Source: a virus. From it: DNA of 36,574 nucleotides. The position numbers and the translations under genes are program-made. Below the pieces are notes generated by a model. That model saw only the letters and a program-made list of their open reading frames with translations, was not told the DNA's origin and ran no database searches. The stretch lies in the IMG/VR virus record IMGVR_UViG_3300032291_001069, positions 1 through 36,574 of that record. One strand, given 5' to 3'. Below, in pieces: positions 2,379 through 24,721 of the stretch. Numbering within the stretch: the stretch's first letter is position 1; each line of letters opens with the position of its first letter.

Positions 2379-4373
2379 ATGGCAGCAGCAGAGCAAAAGA
2401 AATCTTATGCTGTCTATAAGAACTTTAAAGGTCTGAATACCAAGGCCAATAGAACAGCTATTGATGAAGAGGAATTCTCATGGATTGAGAATGCTATGCC
2501 TATCGGGTTTGGCAACATCAAGATTGTTCCTGCTCAAGTCACAGTTAAAGATGGCGGTAATAACGCTATATCGTTTGGCAATACAGTCTCTACCCTTACC
2601 AATACCAATCTTGGATTGTCTGACTATTTGTTGGCTTTTCAAGAGAGTGGTAGAGGACAGTATGTAATCATAGATACAGGCGTTGTAGGCAATGTAGGAG
2701 TGACAGGAACATTCTCCTCTGCAAATGTGTCTATCGCTCAGTGGAAAAACGAGGAAGTATTTATAGGTGACCCCAATAAAGGACTGTTTACTTGGGATGG
2801 CACTGACTTACTTAATGTTGGTGGTGTAGGTCAAATAGGACTTACAAACAGGGGTTCAGGTTATACCTCTGCGCCAGCAGTCACTATCTCTGCACCTAAC
2901 CAGGCAAACGGGACACAGGCAACGGCGGTGTCCACAATTACAGCAAATGCGGTGTCCTCTATTTCAATTACAGAAGGTGGTAGCGGGTATACCGCTGCCC
3001 CTACCGTAACAATTACAGGTGGTGGTGGTAGTGGAGCTAACGCTATTGCAGAACTTCTGACCTTTACCAAAGGTGCGTTATTTATACAAGTAACAAATAG
3101 TGGTTCTGGTTATGACCCTGCTTCTCCTCCTGCTGTCACCATTACTGGTGGCGGTGGAGCAAATGCCACTGCTACTGCTATTGTGTTTGGCAATGCGGTA
3201 ACACAAGTCATCATGTCAAATGTAGGCAACAACTTCACAAGTGTACCTACAGTCACGATAGCTGCTCCACCTACGCCTACTGGCAATGCAAATGCTACGG
3301 TAATCGGTGTGCCAAATCTAGAAGAAATAGCTGCCGTTTCTACTTTTTCTGGTCGTGTGTGGGTGGCTACAGGTCGTACAGTTACCTTTTCCTCTGCCTC
3401 AAGCCCTACTGACTTCACTTCTATTTCTGCGGGTTCAGAGACAATTACAGACTCTACCTTGCGTGGCAATATACAAAACATGGTATCTGCCAACAACTTT
3501 CTGTATATTTTTGGAGAGGACAGCATCAACGTCTTTTCTGATGTCAGGATTACAAACACGGGCGACACTCTATTTACAAACACAAACGTGTCTGCGTCAG
3601 TAGGTAGTAAGCTGAAATACGCTGTTTACCCTTACTTCCGCTCTGTATTGTTTATGAATAACTACGGGGTATACGCTCTGGTTGGCTCAACAACAAGCAA
3701 GATTTCTGACCAACTTGACGGTATTTTTCCTTACATAGACTTCACCAAGCCTGTAACTGCGGGTCAAGTCTTGCTCAACAACATCCTGTGTGCCGCATTT
3801 AACTTCTACTTGAATTCTAGCTTTCCCACCACCACGGGAGACAGGTTTGTACAGTGCGTGTTTTTTGAGAAGAAGTGGTTTATTACTAGCCAAGGTGCGT
3901 TGCGATATGTGTCTTCTGCTCCCGTAGGTGGGTTGATTAACTTGTATGGGGTAACAGATACGGCTCTTTTTAGGCTGTACGGGGATGCAACTGCAAATAT
4001 CTCTTCAGAGATGCAGACATCTTTGTCTCCTATGAAAGACCCTATTCGCACCAAACAAGCATTAAAATTTGGTATAGAAGCAACGCTTACTACAGGTGGC
4101 TCATTTAATGTGACTGTGGATAGTGAGAGTGGTTCTAGTCCTGTTTATGTGTTAAACAACACAGTAAATTGGTTTAACAATCAAGGTGTCACGCTTACTT
4201 GGCTTAATAATTCTTCACAGGTTATCGGGTGGTTGACAAGTTCAGGGTACGCCCTGTACAAGTCAGATGCACAGCAGTATGGTAAGTATTTGGGGTTGAC
4301 AATCACTAGCACAGACCCTGCGCTAACTGTCAACACAATTGAGTTTGAACATGAATTAAGAGTGAGGTTCTAA
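2379..4373 (+). CDS. Tail hub/stabilisation protein, P22 gp10-like, with repeat insert (664 aa)
   Basis: The N-terminus 'YKNFKGLNTKANRTAIDEEE' followed by SWIENAMPI is typical of gp10-like packaged-DNA stabilisation proteins, which assemble under the gp4 adaptor and close the tail. The 'GRVWVATGRTVTFSSASSPTDF' type of strand (about residues 325-350, here with small changes) and YIFGEDSINVF (about 374-384) support this beta-propeller-like family. Residues about 150-311 are an insertion of four degenerate GSGYTxxPxVTI-GGGGxxAxA repeats, described separately. The gene starts two bases after the adaptor stop. Confidence 0.72.
   Translation: MAAAEQKKSYAVYKNFKGLNTKANRTAIDEEEFSWIENAMPIGFGNIKIVPAQVTVKDGGNNAISFGNTVSTLTNTNLGLSDYLLAFQESGRGQYVIIDTGVVGNVGVTGTFSSANVSIAQWKNEEVFIGDPNKGLFTWDGTDLLNVGGVGQIGLTNRGSGYTSAPAVTISAPNQANGTQATAVSTITANAVSSISITEGGSGYTAAPTVTITGGGGSGANAIAELLTFTKGALFIQVTNSGSGYDPASPPAVTITGGGGANATATAIVFGNAVTQVIMSNVGNNFTSVPTVTIAAPPTPTGNANATVIGVPNLEEIAAVSTFSGRVWVATGRTVTFSSASSPTDFTSISAGSETITDSTLRGNIQNMVSANNFLYIFGEDSINVFSDVRITNTGDTLFTNTNVSASVGSKLKYAVYPYFRSVLFMNNYGVYALVGSTTSKISDQLDGIFPYIDFTKPVTAGQVLLNNILCAAFNFYLNSSFPTTTGDRFVQCVFFEKKWFITSQGALRYVSSAPVGGLINLYGVTDTALFRLYGDATANISSEMQTSLSPMKDPIRTKQALKFGIEATLTTGGSFNVTVDSESGSSPVYVLNNTVNWFNNQGVTLTWLNNSSQVIGWLTSSGYALYKSDAQQYGKYLGLTITSTDPALTVNTIEFEHELRVRF
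2831..3312 (+). repeat. Four degenerate Gly/Thr-rich protein repeats inside the gp10-like gene
   Basis: Within the frame, four units share the plan GSGYT-x-P-x-VTI-(G/A)-rich-NATA: beginning near residues 152, 192, 236 and 277 of the host gene. Units two and three are closest (GGSGYTAAPTVTITGGGG and SGSGYDPASPPAVTITGGGG). The fourth is worn (VGNNFTSVPTVTIAAPP). Such repeats are common in phage adhesins and fibres, so this looks like a fibre-type module inserted in the hub protein. Confidence 0.75.
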
Positions 4374-7798: not shown

Positions 7799-8230
7799 AT
7801 GGCAGATGTCATGCAAGAAGTAAAAAAGCAAAATGTTGCTGATGACATACCTATGCTTGACATCTTGAGACAAGATGTTGGTCGGTCTGGTGGTGACTTT
7901 AATTCTATTTACAGGGGATTAAAGACTGGTATTGAGTCTGGAAAAATGAGAATCATGCGTTCTGGCAATACGCTGTTGATATACAACATCTTGCAGCCAG
8001 GCATTGTTGAGCTTCATATTTCCACGGTGGATGAGCCAACCAAGTTGGTTAAGTCTGTCAAAGAGTTATATCAAGCAATGAAAGTTGCTGGATTTAAAAC
8101 AGGTGTTTCCACAACAGACAATTCTCAAATTGCTCGTGTTTTGAATGCGGCAGACATACCTGTTAGGGTTGAACAAATCCCTAGCGCAGAAGGTAGAACT
8201 GAATACCAATTAACCATAGAGGTGAAATAA
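7799..8230 (+). CDS. Hypothetical protein with GNAT-like pattern (143 aa)
   Basis: The middle (about residues 55-110) has strand-strand-helix elements, LLIYNILQPGIVELHIST then a KSVKELYQAMKVAGFKTGVSTT helix and strand, that recall acyltransferase-like (GNAT) folds found beside internal virion genes in T7-like phages. No clear acetyl-CoA P-loop is visible, so enzymatic activity is doubtful. It precedes the ejection-protein genes with a one-base overlap and is probably part of that virion module. Confidence 0.45.
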   Translation: MADVMQEVKKQNVADDIPMLDILRQDVGRSGGDFNSIYRGLKTGIESGKMRIMRSGNTLLIYNILQPGIVELHISTVDEPTKLVKSVKELYQAMKVAGFKTGVSTTDNSQIARVLNAADIPVRVEQIPSAEGRTEYQLTIEVK

Positions 8231-9258
8231 TGGGTGGCCCAGCAAAAGCAGTTCAAAAAGTTGTTTCTGGAGCAGAAAAAGTTGTCTCTGGAGCGGTAAA
8301 AACAGTAGAAGCTATTGCTGAAGACCCGTTGCCTTTTATTGCAACAGTGGCTTTAATTTCTGTTGGCGTTCCTCCAGAACTAGCCTCTGCTGCGGTTACT
8401 GCCGCTAATGGCGGTGATATGGATGAAATAGTTTCCTCTGCGGCTACGGCTTATGTAGGAGGTAAAGCTGCCGAGTATGCTGGTTCTAGTGCATCAAGTG
8501 CTGGTTCATCTGCTACAACTGCAAAAATAGCCGCTTCTGCTGCTGGCGCATCTACTGCTACTACTTTAAGAGAATTGGATAATGGTAAATCTTTTGATGA
8601 AGCGTTGGACGCTGGCTTGAAATCAGCCGTAGTTTCTGGTGGAACAACAGCCGTTATAGAAGGAGGAAAAGCCGCTCTTGCCCCTCCTGAAACTGGACAA
8701 GGTATCAAAGCCGTGCCAGGCAAAGGAACGAACCTTGCGGGTGACCAGTCCCAAGTAAGCGGCACAGGATTAACAGACAAAGTTCCTACAGGTGGTGGAC
8801 AAGGATTGACTGTTGACCCATCTTCAACTTTGTACGCATCACAATTTACGCCAAGCACAGGTAGGGTCAGAGGTACAGAAGAGGGTGGTTTGCAACCTGC
8901 TTATAGGTCTGGAGCAGATTATCTAACCCCTGATTCTTTTGATACATCTATTGCAGGTTCTACACCCGTTAAAGAGCCAAGAACAGTAACGCAAACTCCT
9001 GAACCTGTTATTTCTAAAACAACAGAAATGCTGGCTAGACCTATTATTGCTGGCGGTTTATCTGAATTGTTTGGGTTTGGCCCTAAAGTTCCAGGCGCAC
9101 CTTCTGTTGGCATTGCACAGACTACGACAACAGGTACGACTACTGGCTTGACAGGAACGAGTGGAGCAGGTGAAATTGAAGGTAAAGAATCTGGTAAAAA
9201 GCGTTCAAACGTGTGGAATGAAGAGTCTTTGCGACTTAAAGATGCTCTAGGAGTGTGA
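8230..9258 (+). CDS. Probable internal/ejection protein, Ala/Gly-rich (342 aa)
   Basis: The N-terminal third is amphipathic and then hydrophobic (FIATVALISVGVPPELASAA), with small-residue helices carrying Ala/Ser/Gly spacing typical of proteins that insert into membranes during DNA ejection. The remainder is low complexity and disordered (Thr, Gly, Pro). It is the first of four consecutive large genes between tail and lysis regions, the place of P22 gp7/gp20/gp16 or T7 gp14-16 type proteins. Role inferred from position and composition. Confidence 0.55.
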   Translation: MGGPAKAVQKVVSGAEKVVSGAVKTVEAIAEDPLPFIATVALISVGVPPELASAAVTAANGGDMDEIVSSAATAYVGGKAAEYAGSSASSAGSSATTAKIAASAAGASTATTLRELDNGKSFDEALDAGLKSAVVSGGTTAVIEGGKAALAPPETGQGIKAVPGKGTNLAGDQSQVSGTGLTDKVPTGGGQGLTVDPSSTLYASQFTPSTGRVRGTEEGGLQPAYRSGADYLTPDSFDTSIAGSTPVKEPRTVTQTPEPVISKTTEMLARPIIAGGLSELFGFGPKVPGAPSVGIAQTTTTGTTTGLTGTSGAGEIEGKESGKKRSNVWNEESLRLKDALGV

Positions 9259-20653: not shown

Positions 20654-20842
20654 TCATTCCTTTCGTGTGTATGTGTACTTGGCGTACTTCTTGCCGTTTT
20701 CATTAACCATGTGCGTAAAGATTCTGTGTCCGTCTTTCCGCAAACTTTCAATATGTGCTGCAAGTCGGAAACTCCCAAACATGTTTAACGCATCTCTCGG
20801 TGTCAAGCTACCACCGCTTTGAAGGTGAGTCAGAATATTCAT
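20654..20842 (-). CDS. Small helix-turn-helix protein, HTH_39-like (62 aa)
   Basis: The product MNILTHLQSGGSLTPRDALN continues MFGSFRLAAHIESLRKDGHRI, the compact HTH seen in many phage proteins (HTH_39, PF14090 as I recall), with the recognition helix at about residues 24-36. The C-terminal strand (AKYTYTRKE) completes a winged-helix look. It may bind DNA at the recombination or early promoters. ATG 20842 overlaps the RecT stop by four bases; a longer upstream extension in this frame lies inside RecT and looks non-coding. Confidence 0.7.
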   Translation of the reverse strand: MNILTHLQSGGSLTPRDALNMFGSFRLAAHIESLRKDGHRIFTHMVNENGKKYAKYTYTRKE

Positions 20843-21693
20843 TCGCTGAGTCCCATATCGGGAGGTGACTGGGACTTGTCGGGCTTTGGGCTGACTGTTC
20901 CTCCAACTGTGACAATGGCAGCTTTGAGTTTGACTCTGTGTTCTGTTCCAAATCCTTCTGTAACGGACTTGTTGCATTCTGAGAGTCGTTCAAACTTACC
21001 TGCCTTTTCCTCCACAGGGATTTTCGTTGACGAAATAATGCGGGAAACCATGTCGGCATAGCCTGTTATCCAATCTTCGGGTGTTGCATAGCGTTTGTAG
21101 GGTTCGTCAGTGCCAGGGACAAAGAGAGGGAACGCACCTTCCTCCTCAGTCTCAGCAAGTGCAACCTCATGTACATCTTCCACCCGCTCGACATTGCCCA
21201 TATGTTTGACCGTTTGTGCTGGCGCAAAGTCCGCAACCTCTTCAGGTGTGTAGACACCGACCACACACCCTGGGAATACAGCTCGTATTCCTTCGCTAAT
21301 GACCCTCGCTCGCAACATTGCTCTTGGATAGTTCTTCCAGTTATCTTTGCTGGCGATGCCAATTTCTTTCGCTTGCTTGAGAGTCCATGTGACTTCAAGA
21401 GAGCCTCCTTGCGGATGCGTGAATAGACCCGTAACGGCATCATTTGTGTATTCCTTCCATGTCACAGAACCACCCGCTTGTTGGAAGCGAGCCAGCATAG
21501 CGTCTGCTTTCAGGGCAGGGCGACCTTGGATAACGTGAAAGTCACGCATAGCGATGGCGGGGTGTAAGCCTTCTGCTTGGCATAGCAACATGATTGCCAT
21601 AGCCTCTTGTGGGTTCTTAAACCCAAACATCTTGGAACTGGCAGCAACTTCTGCCATGTGCTGAATGTCTTGCAAAGGTACGATATTACTCAT
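20839..21693 (-). CDS. RecT-family single-strand annealing protein (284 aa)
   Basis: Characteristic stretches are FKNPQEAMAIMLLCQAEGLH, QGRPALKADAMLARFQQAGG and KNYPRAMLRARVISEGIRAV, followed by FPGCVVGVYTPEEV, all typical of RecT/Redbeta-type annealases (RecT family, PF03837). The acidic/polar C-terminal part (residues 165-284) is less conserved. It anneals complementary strands after resection by the YqaJ exonuclease encoded upstream in the same operon. The start has a small palindrome GGAAGTTCC in its leader. Confidence 0.85.
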   Translation of the reverse strand: MSNIVPLQDIQHMAEVAASSKMFGFKNPQEAMAIMLLCQAEGLHPAIAMRDFHVIQGRPALKADAMLARFQQAGGSVTWKEYTNDAVTGLFTHPQGGSLEVTWTLKQAKEIGIASKDNWKNYPRAMLRARVISEGIRAVFPGCVVGVYTPEEVADFAPAQTVKHMGNVERVEDVHEVALAETEEEGAFPLFVPGTDEPYKRYATPEDWITGYADMVSRIISSTKIPVEEKAGKFERLSECNKSVTEGFGTEHRVKLKAAIVTVGGTVSPKPDKSQSPPDMGLSE

Positions 21694-22090: not shown

Positions 22091-22101
22091 GTGAACCTCA
22101 C
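22091..22101 (-). promoter_or_regulatory. Start-site hairpin GTGA-GGT-TCAC
   Basis: Four-pair stem with triloop GGT, one base before ATG 22089. The Shine-Dalgarno GAGG is inside the stem and loop. Same size as the AGU-triloop hairpins at other starts but with a different loop. Confidence 0.45.
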
Positions 22102-22991
22102 TTTAAAAGGAATCTACGAGAACCAGCCATCTCACGCATAAACTGCTTGTGAATGTCAGGCATGGCTTCTTGGAAAAGCTTGCTATCGAACTTGATACTT
22201 GGCTTTGCATTCTTCCAAGTGGCAAGAACTTGCCCCTCTATGTTGGACAGCACAGAGGCATCCCCCATATACCCTGCTACCAAGGTTTGATACTGCTCTT
22301 CCTGAGCCTCTAGAAGCTTAATTTGAGCCTTGACTTGACTCAGGGCTAGACAGGCTTGCTCAACGCTTGCAGAGGCTGTCTTGACCTCTTCTAAGCCTTG
22401 TGGGTACAGCAGCTTGACTTGCTCTAAGTCTTCGGGGGGAAGAGTTGTCCCTGCTTGTGCATGACCCCACACGACTGCCATCTGTTTGATAAGGTCTTCC
22501 TTTTGTTCATCTGTGATAGTAAATGGAATGAGGAGAAACTCCTGACCTCCGAACAGTATGGCGAGATAAACCAAATCGACACCATATACAGCAGCTTCGT
22601 GTACCAGTTGCGCCACATCCGCAGGGGGTGCGATGCCACTAACATCAAACTTAGACCTAACACTAGCGTTGTAGTTCTTAGCTTCAACGAGGAAACTCTT
22701 ACCGCCTTGCTTGCCAGCAAAGTCAAAATGAGACTTGAACCAAGGGTGTTTGGCATGGGTGAGACTCTCCTCAATCTTGACTAACTCTGTACCTAGCTTG
22801 GCTTGTGCGAGTCTGCCAATTACTGGTTCTAAAACATGTCCCATCTGTACAGCTTCTATGTCAGACAGGTCAGGTATAGGCATCTTGCCTTGCTTCGTCA
22901 GGATTACCTCGTTAGCTTTGCCATTGGCTACCTTGCGAGAGTCACCCGACCAAATAGCAGAGTTGCGGGTTGTTGCAGAAAAGTCACTCAT
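22098..22991 (-). CDS. YqaJ-type viral recombinase exonuclease (297 aa)
   Basis: PD-(D/E)XK residues are visible: E55 in GHVLEP, D90 in HFDFAG, and E103/K105 in LVEAKN, the standard YqaJ exonuclease layout. ATTRNSAIWSGDSRKVANGK at residues 6-25 fits the N-terminal helix region. The C-terminal third (from about 205) has a coiled-coil stretch. It resects double-stranded DNA ends 5' to 3' for the RecT annealase. Start leader is AAAGGAAACACATT. Confidence 0.85.
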   Translation of the reverse strand: MSDFSATTRNSAIWSGDSRKVANGKANEVILTKQGKMPIPDLSDIEAVQMGHVLEPVIGRLAQAKLGTELVKIEESLTHAKHPWFKSHFDFAGKQGGKSFLVEAKNYNASVRSKFDVSGIAPPADVAQLVHEAAVYGVDLVYLAILFGGQEFLLIPFTITDEQKEDLIKQMAVVWGHAQAGTTLPPEDLEQVKLLYPQGLEEVKTASASVEQACLALSQVKAQIKLLEAQEEQYQTLVAGYMGDASVLSNIEGQVLATWKNAKPSIKFDSKLFQEAMPDIHKQFMREMAGSRRFLLK

Positions 22992-23516: not shown

Positions 23517-23714
23517 TTATGAAATTTGTAAAGCACTAGGAAGAGGAAAGGGGCTATCCCTACCATCAGTCCCAGTAAAAGAATCAGACTCCAAATTAGT
23601 GCATCTAGCATGTATGTCTCCAGTGATTGTTAGGGCTTTAATGATGACTGACTGAGGGTGCAGCAGTCCCTCTCTGACTTGATTGAGGATGATGTTGGCT
23701 TCTTGTTTGTTCAT
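23517..23714 (-). CDS. Small conserved phage protein (65 aa)
   Basis: The N-terminus MNKQEANIILNQVREGLLHP followed by VIIKALTITGD matches a small phage family (M-x-x-QEAxxILxxVxxG...PxxxIxxALxxTGD) of unknown function. The C-terminal 30 residues look unstructured. ATG 23714 with AAAGGAAACACACAC upstream is preferred to an in-frame start at 23735. Confidence 0.6.
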   Translation of the reverse strand: MNKQEANIILNQVREGLLHPQSVIIKALTITGDIHARCTNLESDSFTGTDGRDSPFPLPSALQIS

Positions 23715-23748
23715 GTGTGTGTTTCCTTTAGACAATACAAGGGCTACG

Positions 23749-24003
23749 GTAGGGATGATGATTAGTCAATGTCCTACTTTCAGCCTTGGGGCTGTCCTGT
23801 ATGGGGCATACACCCGTATACAGTTCTGCTGCTTTATTTATCGACCCAACTATTCCGTAGTTGCCACGGTTGACTATCAGCCTACATGGTCGTTTATCAC
23901 TTGGGGCAGAACCCTCGTGCACCCGTCCCCCTTGGGTCAAGGTGAACCGCTTTCCTCCCTCGCCACCACAGTCATGGGTGCTTACTATCGTGAGGGGTAC
24001 GGT
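23749..24003 (-). ncRNA. Candidate large structured RNA or leader, about 250 nt
   Basis: No convincing coding frame, but a dense series of nested stems (plus coordinates): 24000-24003/23946-23949; 23992-23996/23957-23961; 23977-23980/23964-23967; hairpin 23930-23942; 23906-23912/23823-23829 (seven perfect pairs) enclosing 23888-23892/23842-23846, which closes a three-way junction of hairpins 23868-23882 and 23847-23863 (six perfect pairs, CGGAA loop in minus sense); then hairpins 23797-23823, 23781-23794 (CAGCC-CCAA-GGCTG) and 23749-23753/23773-23777. The strand is inferred from flanking genes. It could be a separate RNA or the long 5' leader of the 23714 gene. Not recognised as a known family. 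Confidence 0.5.
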
Positions 24004-24017
24004 TGACGTAGAACAAT

Positions 24018-24121
24018 AAAAAAAGCCACTTACAACTGCATTCGGGTAGCACCCTCTGAGAATCCCCAGAGGCCAGAACGCATGTGTAAGCGGCTTCATT
24101 TGGTTGTGTGCTACGACAACG
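24018..24121 (-). ncRNA. Candidate small structured RNA with its own promoter and U-run
   Basis: In minus sense the outer stem AAGCCGCTTACA/TGTAAGTGGCTT (24085-24096 with 24023-24034, 12 pairs, one G-U) encloses GCGTTC/GAATGC (24076-24081 with 24038-24043) and CCTCTG/CAGAGG (24067-24072 with 24053-24058, eight-base loop). Seven U follow the outer stem (24018-24024), making it terminator-competent. A consensus sigma70 promoter lies just upstream, giving a predicted transcript of about 104 nt. No open frame of note. Family not recognised. Confidence 0.65.
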
Positions 24122-24127
24122 GCTTGC

Positions 24128-24156
24128 ATATTATGGGGCTTTCTAGGGCTTGTCAA
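24128..24156 (-). promoter_or_regulatory. Consensus sigma70 promoter
   Basis: TTGACA (24151-24156), 17-base spacer, TAATAT (24128-24133), all on the minus strand. The -35 box is perfect and the -10 has four of six consensus positions with the key TA start. Expected start near 24121, directly ahead of the structured RNA. Confidence 0.7.
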
Positions 24157-24179
24157 TAGGGGGGCTGTTAACCCCCCTA
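24157..24179 (-). terminator. G/C-rich hairpin after the 24183 gene
   Basis: TAGGGGGG and CCCCCCTA form an eight-pair stem with loop TTAACAG a few bases after the stop codon of the upstream minus-strand gene. There is no U-run, and the next promoter begins immediately, so it may act as a terminator or insulator. Confidence 0.45.
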
Positions 24180-24182
24180 CTG

Positions 24183-24541: not shown

Positions 24542-24721
24542 TTAATTTCCCGTAGTGATAAGGGCTGTCAAATACCCTGCCACAAAGCAGCCAAGGTATA
24601 TCACTACCCTGTCAGCTATTGGGGGCTCTTCCTGCCACTGGGGGCTAGATGGGAAAGCCTCCCGTAGGGTGCGTGGATACATGCGTGTAGTGTCATTGTG
24701 GGGGGTTGGGGCTTTTATCAT
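24542..24721 (-). CDS. Small one-TM protein (59 aa)
   Basis: ATG 24721 overlaps the preceding stop (ATGA) and has AAAGGAT upstream. The N-terminal half is hydrophilic (PHNDTTRMYPRTLREAFP), a pattern (NDT-TR-YPRTL-EAF) I recall from small membrane proteins of related phages. The C-terminal half is one hydrophobic segment (VVIYLGCFVAGYLTALITT). Function unknown. An inverted repeat within it (24552-24607) is explained by coding sequence and is not called an RNA. Confidence 0.65.
   Translation of the reverse strand: MIKAPTPHNDTTRMYPRTLREAFPSSPQWQEEPPIADRVVIYLGCFVAGYLTALITTGN

Follow-up and report, generated by a model that had tools for sequence, protein, structure and literature searches.

A leader RNA of about 105 nt on the minus strand of a virus genome might be a promoter-proximal transcription attenuator setting how much transcription continues into a noncoding RNA and an early operon; we favour this reading at slightly less than an even chance. 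The whole stretch of DNA analysed, here called the window, comprises the 36,574 bases of one IMG/VR virus record. The leader occupies positions 24012-24121 (minus strand; covariance model R2, 94.6 bits) and consists of a 5' hairpin, a pseudoknot, a terminator hairpin and seven U residues. Judged by alignment, its fold is that of a real structured RNA, strongly conserved across many freshwater phages while the letters change.

The leader is preceded by a sigma70-type promoter, TTGACA-17-TAATAT (24128-24156, minus strand; -35 TTGACA at 24156-24151 and -10 TAATAT at 24133-24128, 17 nt apart), which agrees with the consensus at 10/12 positions and had already been recognised in the sequence-only reading of this DNA. 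Promoter-like sites occur around the leader region at chance frequency (9 found vs. 9.0 expected), and the argument for this promoter therefore has to rest on conservation. A promoter score of at least 9 was obtained at the same place in 37/44 homologous leaders, compared to 3.9% of background windows, and the distance between the end of the -10 hexamer and the 5' hairpin was 6-7 nt in most of these leaders (n = 44). An 11 bp G/C-rich inverted repeat lies at 24150-24180. It had been interpreted as a hairpin insulating the locus from the upstream gene; the hairpin is real, but no U-run follows it and it overlaps the -35 hexamer, and it was rejected as an intrinsic terminator. It is possibly an operator. 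Similar inverted repeats around the -35 hexamer are also visible in contigs L033 and L087.

The 5' hairpin (24103-24120, minus strand) is formed by GUUG (24120-24117) and CAAC (24106-24103), and its stem is paired in 99% of cases. The intrinsic terminator extends over 24018-24096 (minus strand) and is supported by folding and by stem covariation. It comprises an outer stem of 12 pairs (24096-24085 with 24034-24023, AAGCCGCUUACA:UGUAAGUGGCUU), an inner stem of 7 pairs (24082-24076 with 24043-24037) with an apical stem above it, and the U7 tail (24024-24018), so that the outer stem, two inner stems and seven-U tail described earlier are all present. The minimum free energy (MFE) of the leader is -46.7 kcal/mol (z -4.9), and none of 200 shuffled sequences folded equally well. 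U-runs were 5-9 residues long in 45/45 leaders, at least five having been a criterion for collecting them. In the 44 distinct leaders aligned to the structure of model R2, 99.1% of the stem cells were paired, changes on both sides occurred in 20/23 stem pairs, and 189 cells carried such changes, compared to 44.7 after shuffling. As this alignment is fitted to the structure and a U-run of at least five was required, the MAFFT alignment of the leaders gives the fairer count, with 98.8% of the terminator-stem cells paired. The paired changes that the sequence-only reading had proposed to look for in homologues are thus abundant. The unpaired sequence (loop and linker) is poorly conserved and only the shape is kept.

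The loop of the 5' hairpin harbours a strand, A (GUAGCAC, 24114-24108, minus strand), that pairs with strand B (GUGCUAC, 24046-24052, minus strand), which bulges out of the 3' arm of the terminator hairpin. The A:B pseudoknot forms an unbroken Watson-Crick run of 6-9 pairs in 45/45 leaders, in 25 different sequences, and none of 5000 permutations reached the score of the own pairs (z 13.4, falling to 10.4 when only distinct A strands are used). A third strand, C (CUACGUCAAC, 24002-24011, minus strand), lies just beyond the U-run and makes 9/10 pairs with 24120-24111. A and C also coevolve (z 8.0, and 6.9 on distinct A strands; 0/5000 permutations), and some effect of shared ancestry may remain in these values. 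Mean duplex energies were -14.0 kcal/mol for A:B and -10.6 kcal/mol for A:C; in the window they were -12.2 and -13.8 kcal/mol respectively. The two helices share letters of A and are mutually exclusive, and A is involved in coevolving alternative pairings. In the MFE structure of the read-through RNA, the A:C helix closes around the whole hairpin. Strand C is made only once the polymerase has passed the terminator, indicating that read-through transcripts are under selection. Model R2 detected one place per genome, apart from the opposite strand of the leader itself; in the window, this weak match lies on the plus strand (24001-24106, 29 bits) and is a consequence of strands A and C, which turn the module into a quasi-palindrome (an inverted repeat).

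Immediately downstream of the leader lies a large structured RNA of about 260 nt, referred to here as type 1 (23738-24001, minus strand; core of covariance model R1 at 23811-23928, 113.4 bits). By the alignments, this neighbour, and not the leader, is the most conserved RNA at the locus. The earlier reading had missed it, together with the A:B pseudoknot and the A:C coevolution. On the minus strand, type 1 RNA has a 5' helix, a long-range closing helix (23934-23923 with 23749-23738), a hairpin P2 (23898-23919) and a helix P3 (23842-23892; 23892-23888 with 23846-23842) flanked by the invariant stretches GAUAAAC (23898-23892) and GAUAAAUAAAGCA (23842-23830). The P2 loop (GUUCUGC, 23912-23906) forms a pseudoknot, covarying across 51 sequences, with GCAGAAC (23829-23823), a strand located 94 alignment columns past the hairpin loop. 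In the alignment of 51 sequences, 94.3% of the cells were paired (27-40% in slid controls), and both-side changes were found in 207 cells compared to 53.8 in shuffles.

Type 1 RNA is present in about 80 IMG/VR contigs; the core-pattern scans returned 30 contigs and then 100, 20 and 27 stretches, part of them chance matches. In all of 25 records, model R1 gave a single convincing copy, and second copies of the leader or of type 1 RNA were not found in the genome with either model. The plan of promoter, 5' hairpin, terminator hairpin and U-run was found upstream of nearly every type 1 RNA, and in the close group of relatives the R2 match lies just upstream of it. Among 84,980 bacterial and archaeal genomes, a first core-pattern scan returned no match and a later one 53; only 4 of the 53 survived the stem check, and none had the context of the motif. 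In the form defined by these patterns, the type 1 motif was thus not detected in these bacteria and archaea. A distant-similarity search of phages had MW202753 (Manatee Spring phage) as its sole match, in the stretch just downstream of the leader. The CDS of a hypothetical protein annotated there (MW202753.1, 32238-32669, UOF81610) is overlapped by the type 1 RNA and is probably spurious.

Contigs were also fetched through an independent handle, the small protein encoded upstream of the leader at 24542-24721. Type 1 RNA was present in 0/11 of the newly fetched contigs, and the leader was present in 6/11, directly after the gene for this protein. Behind the leader, six contigs (L200, L204, L209, L210, L212 and L015) carry another RNA, type 2, also present in the syntenic place of MW202825. 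Two contigs (L205 and L184) carry type 3, which has the 5' end in common with type 1 and diverges afterwards. Neither type 2 nor type 3 matches Rfam; both are candidate RNA types, with too few divergent members for a covariation test. The leaders checked before types 2 and 3 kept an A:B pseudoknot of 7-9 bp. In one further contig (L074), an open reading frame stands between the leader and the type 1 RNA. In 26 records, the leader never stood anywhere but at the head of another unit. These comparisons suggest that the leader is an exchangeable front module, with the large RNA or gene behind it as payload.

In contig L015, a free-standing HNH endonuclease gene (PF01844; 4191-4565, minus strand) sits between the type 2 RNA and a remnant of the type 1 3' tail, from which the gene takes its last codons; this arrangement suggests recombination at the RNA locus. 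In the syntenic place of L201 and L202 (approximately 3170-3330), the leader model had no match, and another 5' hairpin, ACGCC-GUGACUG-GGCGU, is accompanied by a distant CAGUCAC; this is perhaps a further type of leader.

In the attenuator reading, transcription would start at approximately 24121. The first 13 nt or so (strand A) would form the small hairpin, and its loop would pair with strand B inside the terminator hairpin. Many polymerases would stop at U7, releasing a compact pseudoknotted RNA of about 100 nt. Those reading on would make strand C, which could capture A, replacing the 5' hairpin and A:B, and would continue into the large structured RNA (type 1 here) and then into the early recombination operon. 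Partial or regulated termination, the exchange of A:B for A:C in vivo and the role of the payload are inferred. The comparative evidence pointing this way is the covariation of the stems, the ubiquity of A:B, the coevolution and comparable duplex energies of the alternative A:C helix, the conserved promoter and start, the U-runs, the single-copy leader linked to type 1 RNA, and the same leader before types 2 and 3 and once before a reading frame; the retention of shape in poorly conserved unpaired sequence agrees with it. Counting against an attenuator, A:C forms beyond the terminator and cannot itself decide the first termination event.

The sequence-only reading had proposed an independent small RNA gene. 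In this case the terminated RNA of about 100 nt would act in trans, for example on host or phage RNA or on a protein, and its position would reflect synteny only. The own promoter and intrinsic terminator, which stood up to the analysis, the compact pseudoknotted fold and the retention of the leader while the payload changes would all be expected of such a gene. For its independence the signs are mixed: the payload varies, but the leader coevolves with strand C past the terminator and always heads another unit in the 26 records. It also lacks a conserved loop or linker, and hence a fixed seed or trans target. We consider this explanation rather unlikely, and prefer a switch-like leader mainly because the A:C coevolution implicates read-through.

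The genes behind the locus bear on a third explanation. In the window, a 65-aa ORF without a Pfam or PHROGs match directly follows the type 1 RNA (23517-23714, minus strand), and a RecE-like exonuclease gene (22098-22991, minus strand) and then a RecT-like gene (20839-21693) lie downstream, the locus thus heading the early recombination operon. The phage also encodes SU10-like adaptor and portal proteins and a terminase. With gene names partly read from translations, the order in the close group is RNA, small variable ORFs, CxxC protein, RecE and RecT, and in the distant group, whose GC content reaches 60%, the terminase comes after the RNA. This difference in the operon behind the locus speaks against regulation of any single gene. 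It would also suit antitermination by the nascent RNA, either like that of HK022 put or through a phage protein, in which the leader or the large RNA would modify the polymerase to pass the terminators of the long early or late operon: the locus sits at operon heads directly behind a promoter, before recombination genes in one group and terminase in the other, and the distant group has a second leader and terminator ahead of the terminase. The put RNA of HK022 is about 70 nt long, has two stem-loops and occurs in two copies per genome (PMC9378689). Like the RNA of the present locus, it is structured, follows an early phage promoter immediately and heads an operon. The present locus differs in combining a pseudoknotted leader, equipped with an intrinsic terminator of its own, and an RNA of about 260 nt, in one copy per genome. 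The leader fold does not have the two stem-loop form of put, and the large RNA does not resemble it either; moreover, a terminator precedes the large RNA here. The put RNA binds the zinc-binding domain of the RNA polymerase beta' subunit and suppresses termination; binding of the polymerase by either RNA here would be purely hypothetical. Antitermination is therefore improbable in our judgement.

The A:C complementarity could instead serve processing, as a double-stranded cleavage site. The locus would then be a processing or protection unit, with A:C as a cleavage site or end cap defining and stabilising the 5' end of the large RNA. The coevolution of A and C and the enclosure of the whole hairpin by their helix in the read-through RNA agree with this; the conserved U-run and the A:B pseudoknot are left unexplained, and we regard it as decidedly improbable. 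A coding region or chance fold is scarcely credible: a TTG-started frame of 166 aa is open through the leader region in the window, and a gene is annotated at the locus in MW202753 (UOF81610), but the corresponding frame is open in 13/44 homologues and closed in 31/44, the stems of both the leader and type 1 RNA covary, and the C-terminal frame, including the RSPCIV tail common to the HNH ORF of L015, is not kept, so that the alignments refute a gene and bear out the earlier view of a non-coding segment.

The leader, type 1 and types 2 and 3 were all below the gathering threshold of the 4227 Rfam models, and at a relaxed cut-off of up to E = 10 the leader gave chance-level matches only; types 2 and 3 likewise had no match above chance level. 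No model match was obtained for c4 antisense RNA, 6S, tmRNA, RNase P or Polynucleobacter-1 (Rfam, ARAGORN), in agreement with the earlier statement that the RNA belongs to none of the known families named there (6S, tmRNA, RNase P, c4). No description of the locus was found in the literature searched. In lambda, the 6S RNA of the pR'-tR' leader is a short transcript ended by an intrinsic terminator, with the long Q-dependent late operon behind it. The present leader would likewise be a terminated short transcript before a long operon; we know of no covarying pseudoknot in pR'-tR', and the close-group locus, unlike lambda's late operon, heads an early one. Attenuators and terminator riboswitches (preQ1 and pfl classes) combine a pseudoknot and a terminator in a 5' leader. 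The same combination is found here, with a promoter, leader and G/C-rich hairpin with U-run before the downstream unit; unlike those classes, the leader has no Rfam match and is not tied to one gene, and the rapid change of its pseudoknot letters speaks against any conserved ligand pocket.

Type III antitoxin RNAs (ToxI-like, AvcI-like) are also pseudoknotted RNAs with a terminator. A type III toxin-antitoxin RNA was rejected, since the locus is a single unit with no tandem repeats, no recognised toxin gene and no Rfam match, and its neighbours are small ORFs without a Pfam or PHROGs match, RecE and RecT. They and the phage pseudo-antitoxin RNAs are RNAs used in the interplay of phage and defence (PMC10511110). 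GOLLD and ROOL are large, ornate orphan noncoding RNAs of phages or bacteria (PMC12286853); type 1 RNA is similarly a large orphan, much smaller than these and without a match to their Rfam models.

The RNA families are new in being absent from Rfam and the literature searched, whereas their mechanism is likely of a known kind. The leader, one or more large pseudoknotted RNAs and the two candidate types thus extend the set of RNAs that Rfam lacks and that many freshwater phages carry. We know of no counterpart to a single leader plan combined with interchangeable orphan RNAs; the arrangement suggests that phages swap noncoding RNA cassettes like genes. The attenuator model is testable: from the three coevolving strands it can be predicted when transcription should terminate or read through, and which compensatory changes should rescue it. 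A more far-reaching idea, which we think doubtful, is that this is a hypervariable locus of lytic phages in which one promoter-leader switch expresses at least three kinds of structured RNA cassette acting in trans against the host; the products might then be, for example, RNA-based counter-defence or polymerase- or ribosome-directed RNAs. If true, phages would possess a class of RNA system for which no counterpart has been described.

No relatives with a named host were found, the only named ones being two Manatee Spring phages, neither of which has a host assigned. The second leader of the distant group, with its terminator, lies before the terminase, 100-200 nt past a second GAUAAA. It contains a repeat of the 3' strand of the closing helix of type 1 RNA, and could therefore pair with the 5' strand of the large RNA. 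The repeat was found in 8/13 members of the group (L046, L049, L066, L098, L103, L111, L188 and L192), with a site count of 2.6 vs. 0.8 in shuffles; a permutation test of the more distant strand, in the form run, was not significant. A second strand-exchange switch is possible there. In another distant-group contig, L065, a cluster of three tRNA genes is located at 8087-8321.
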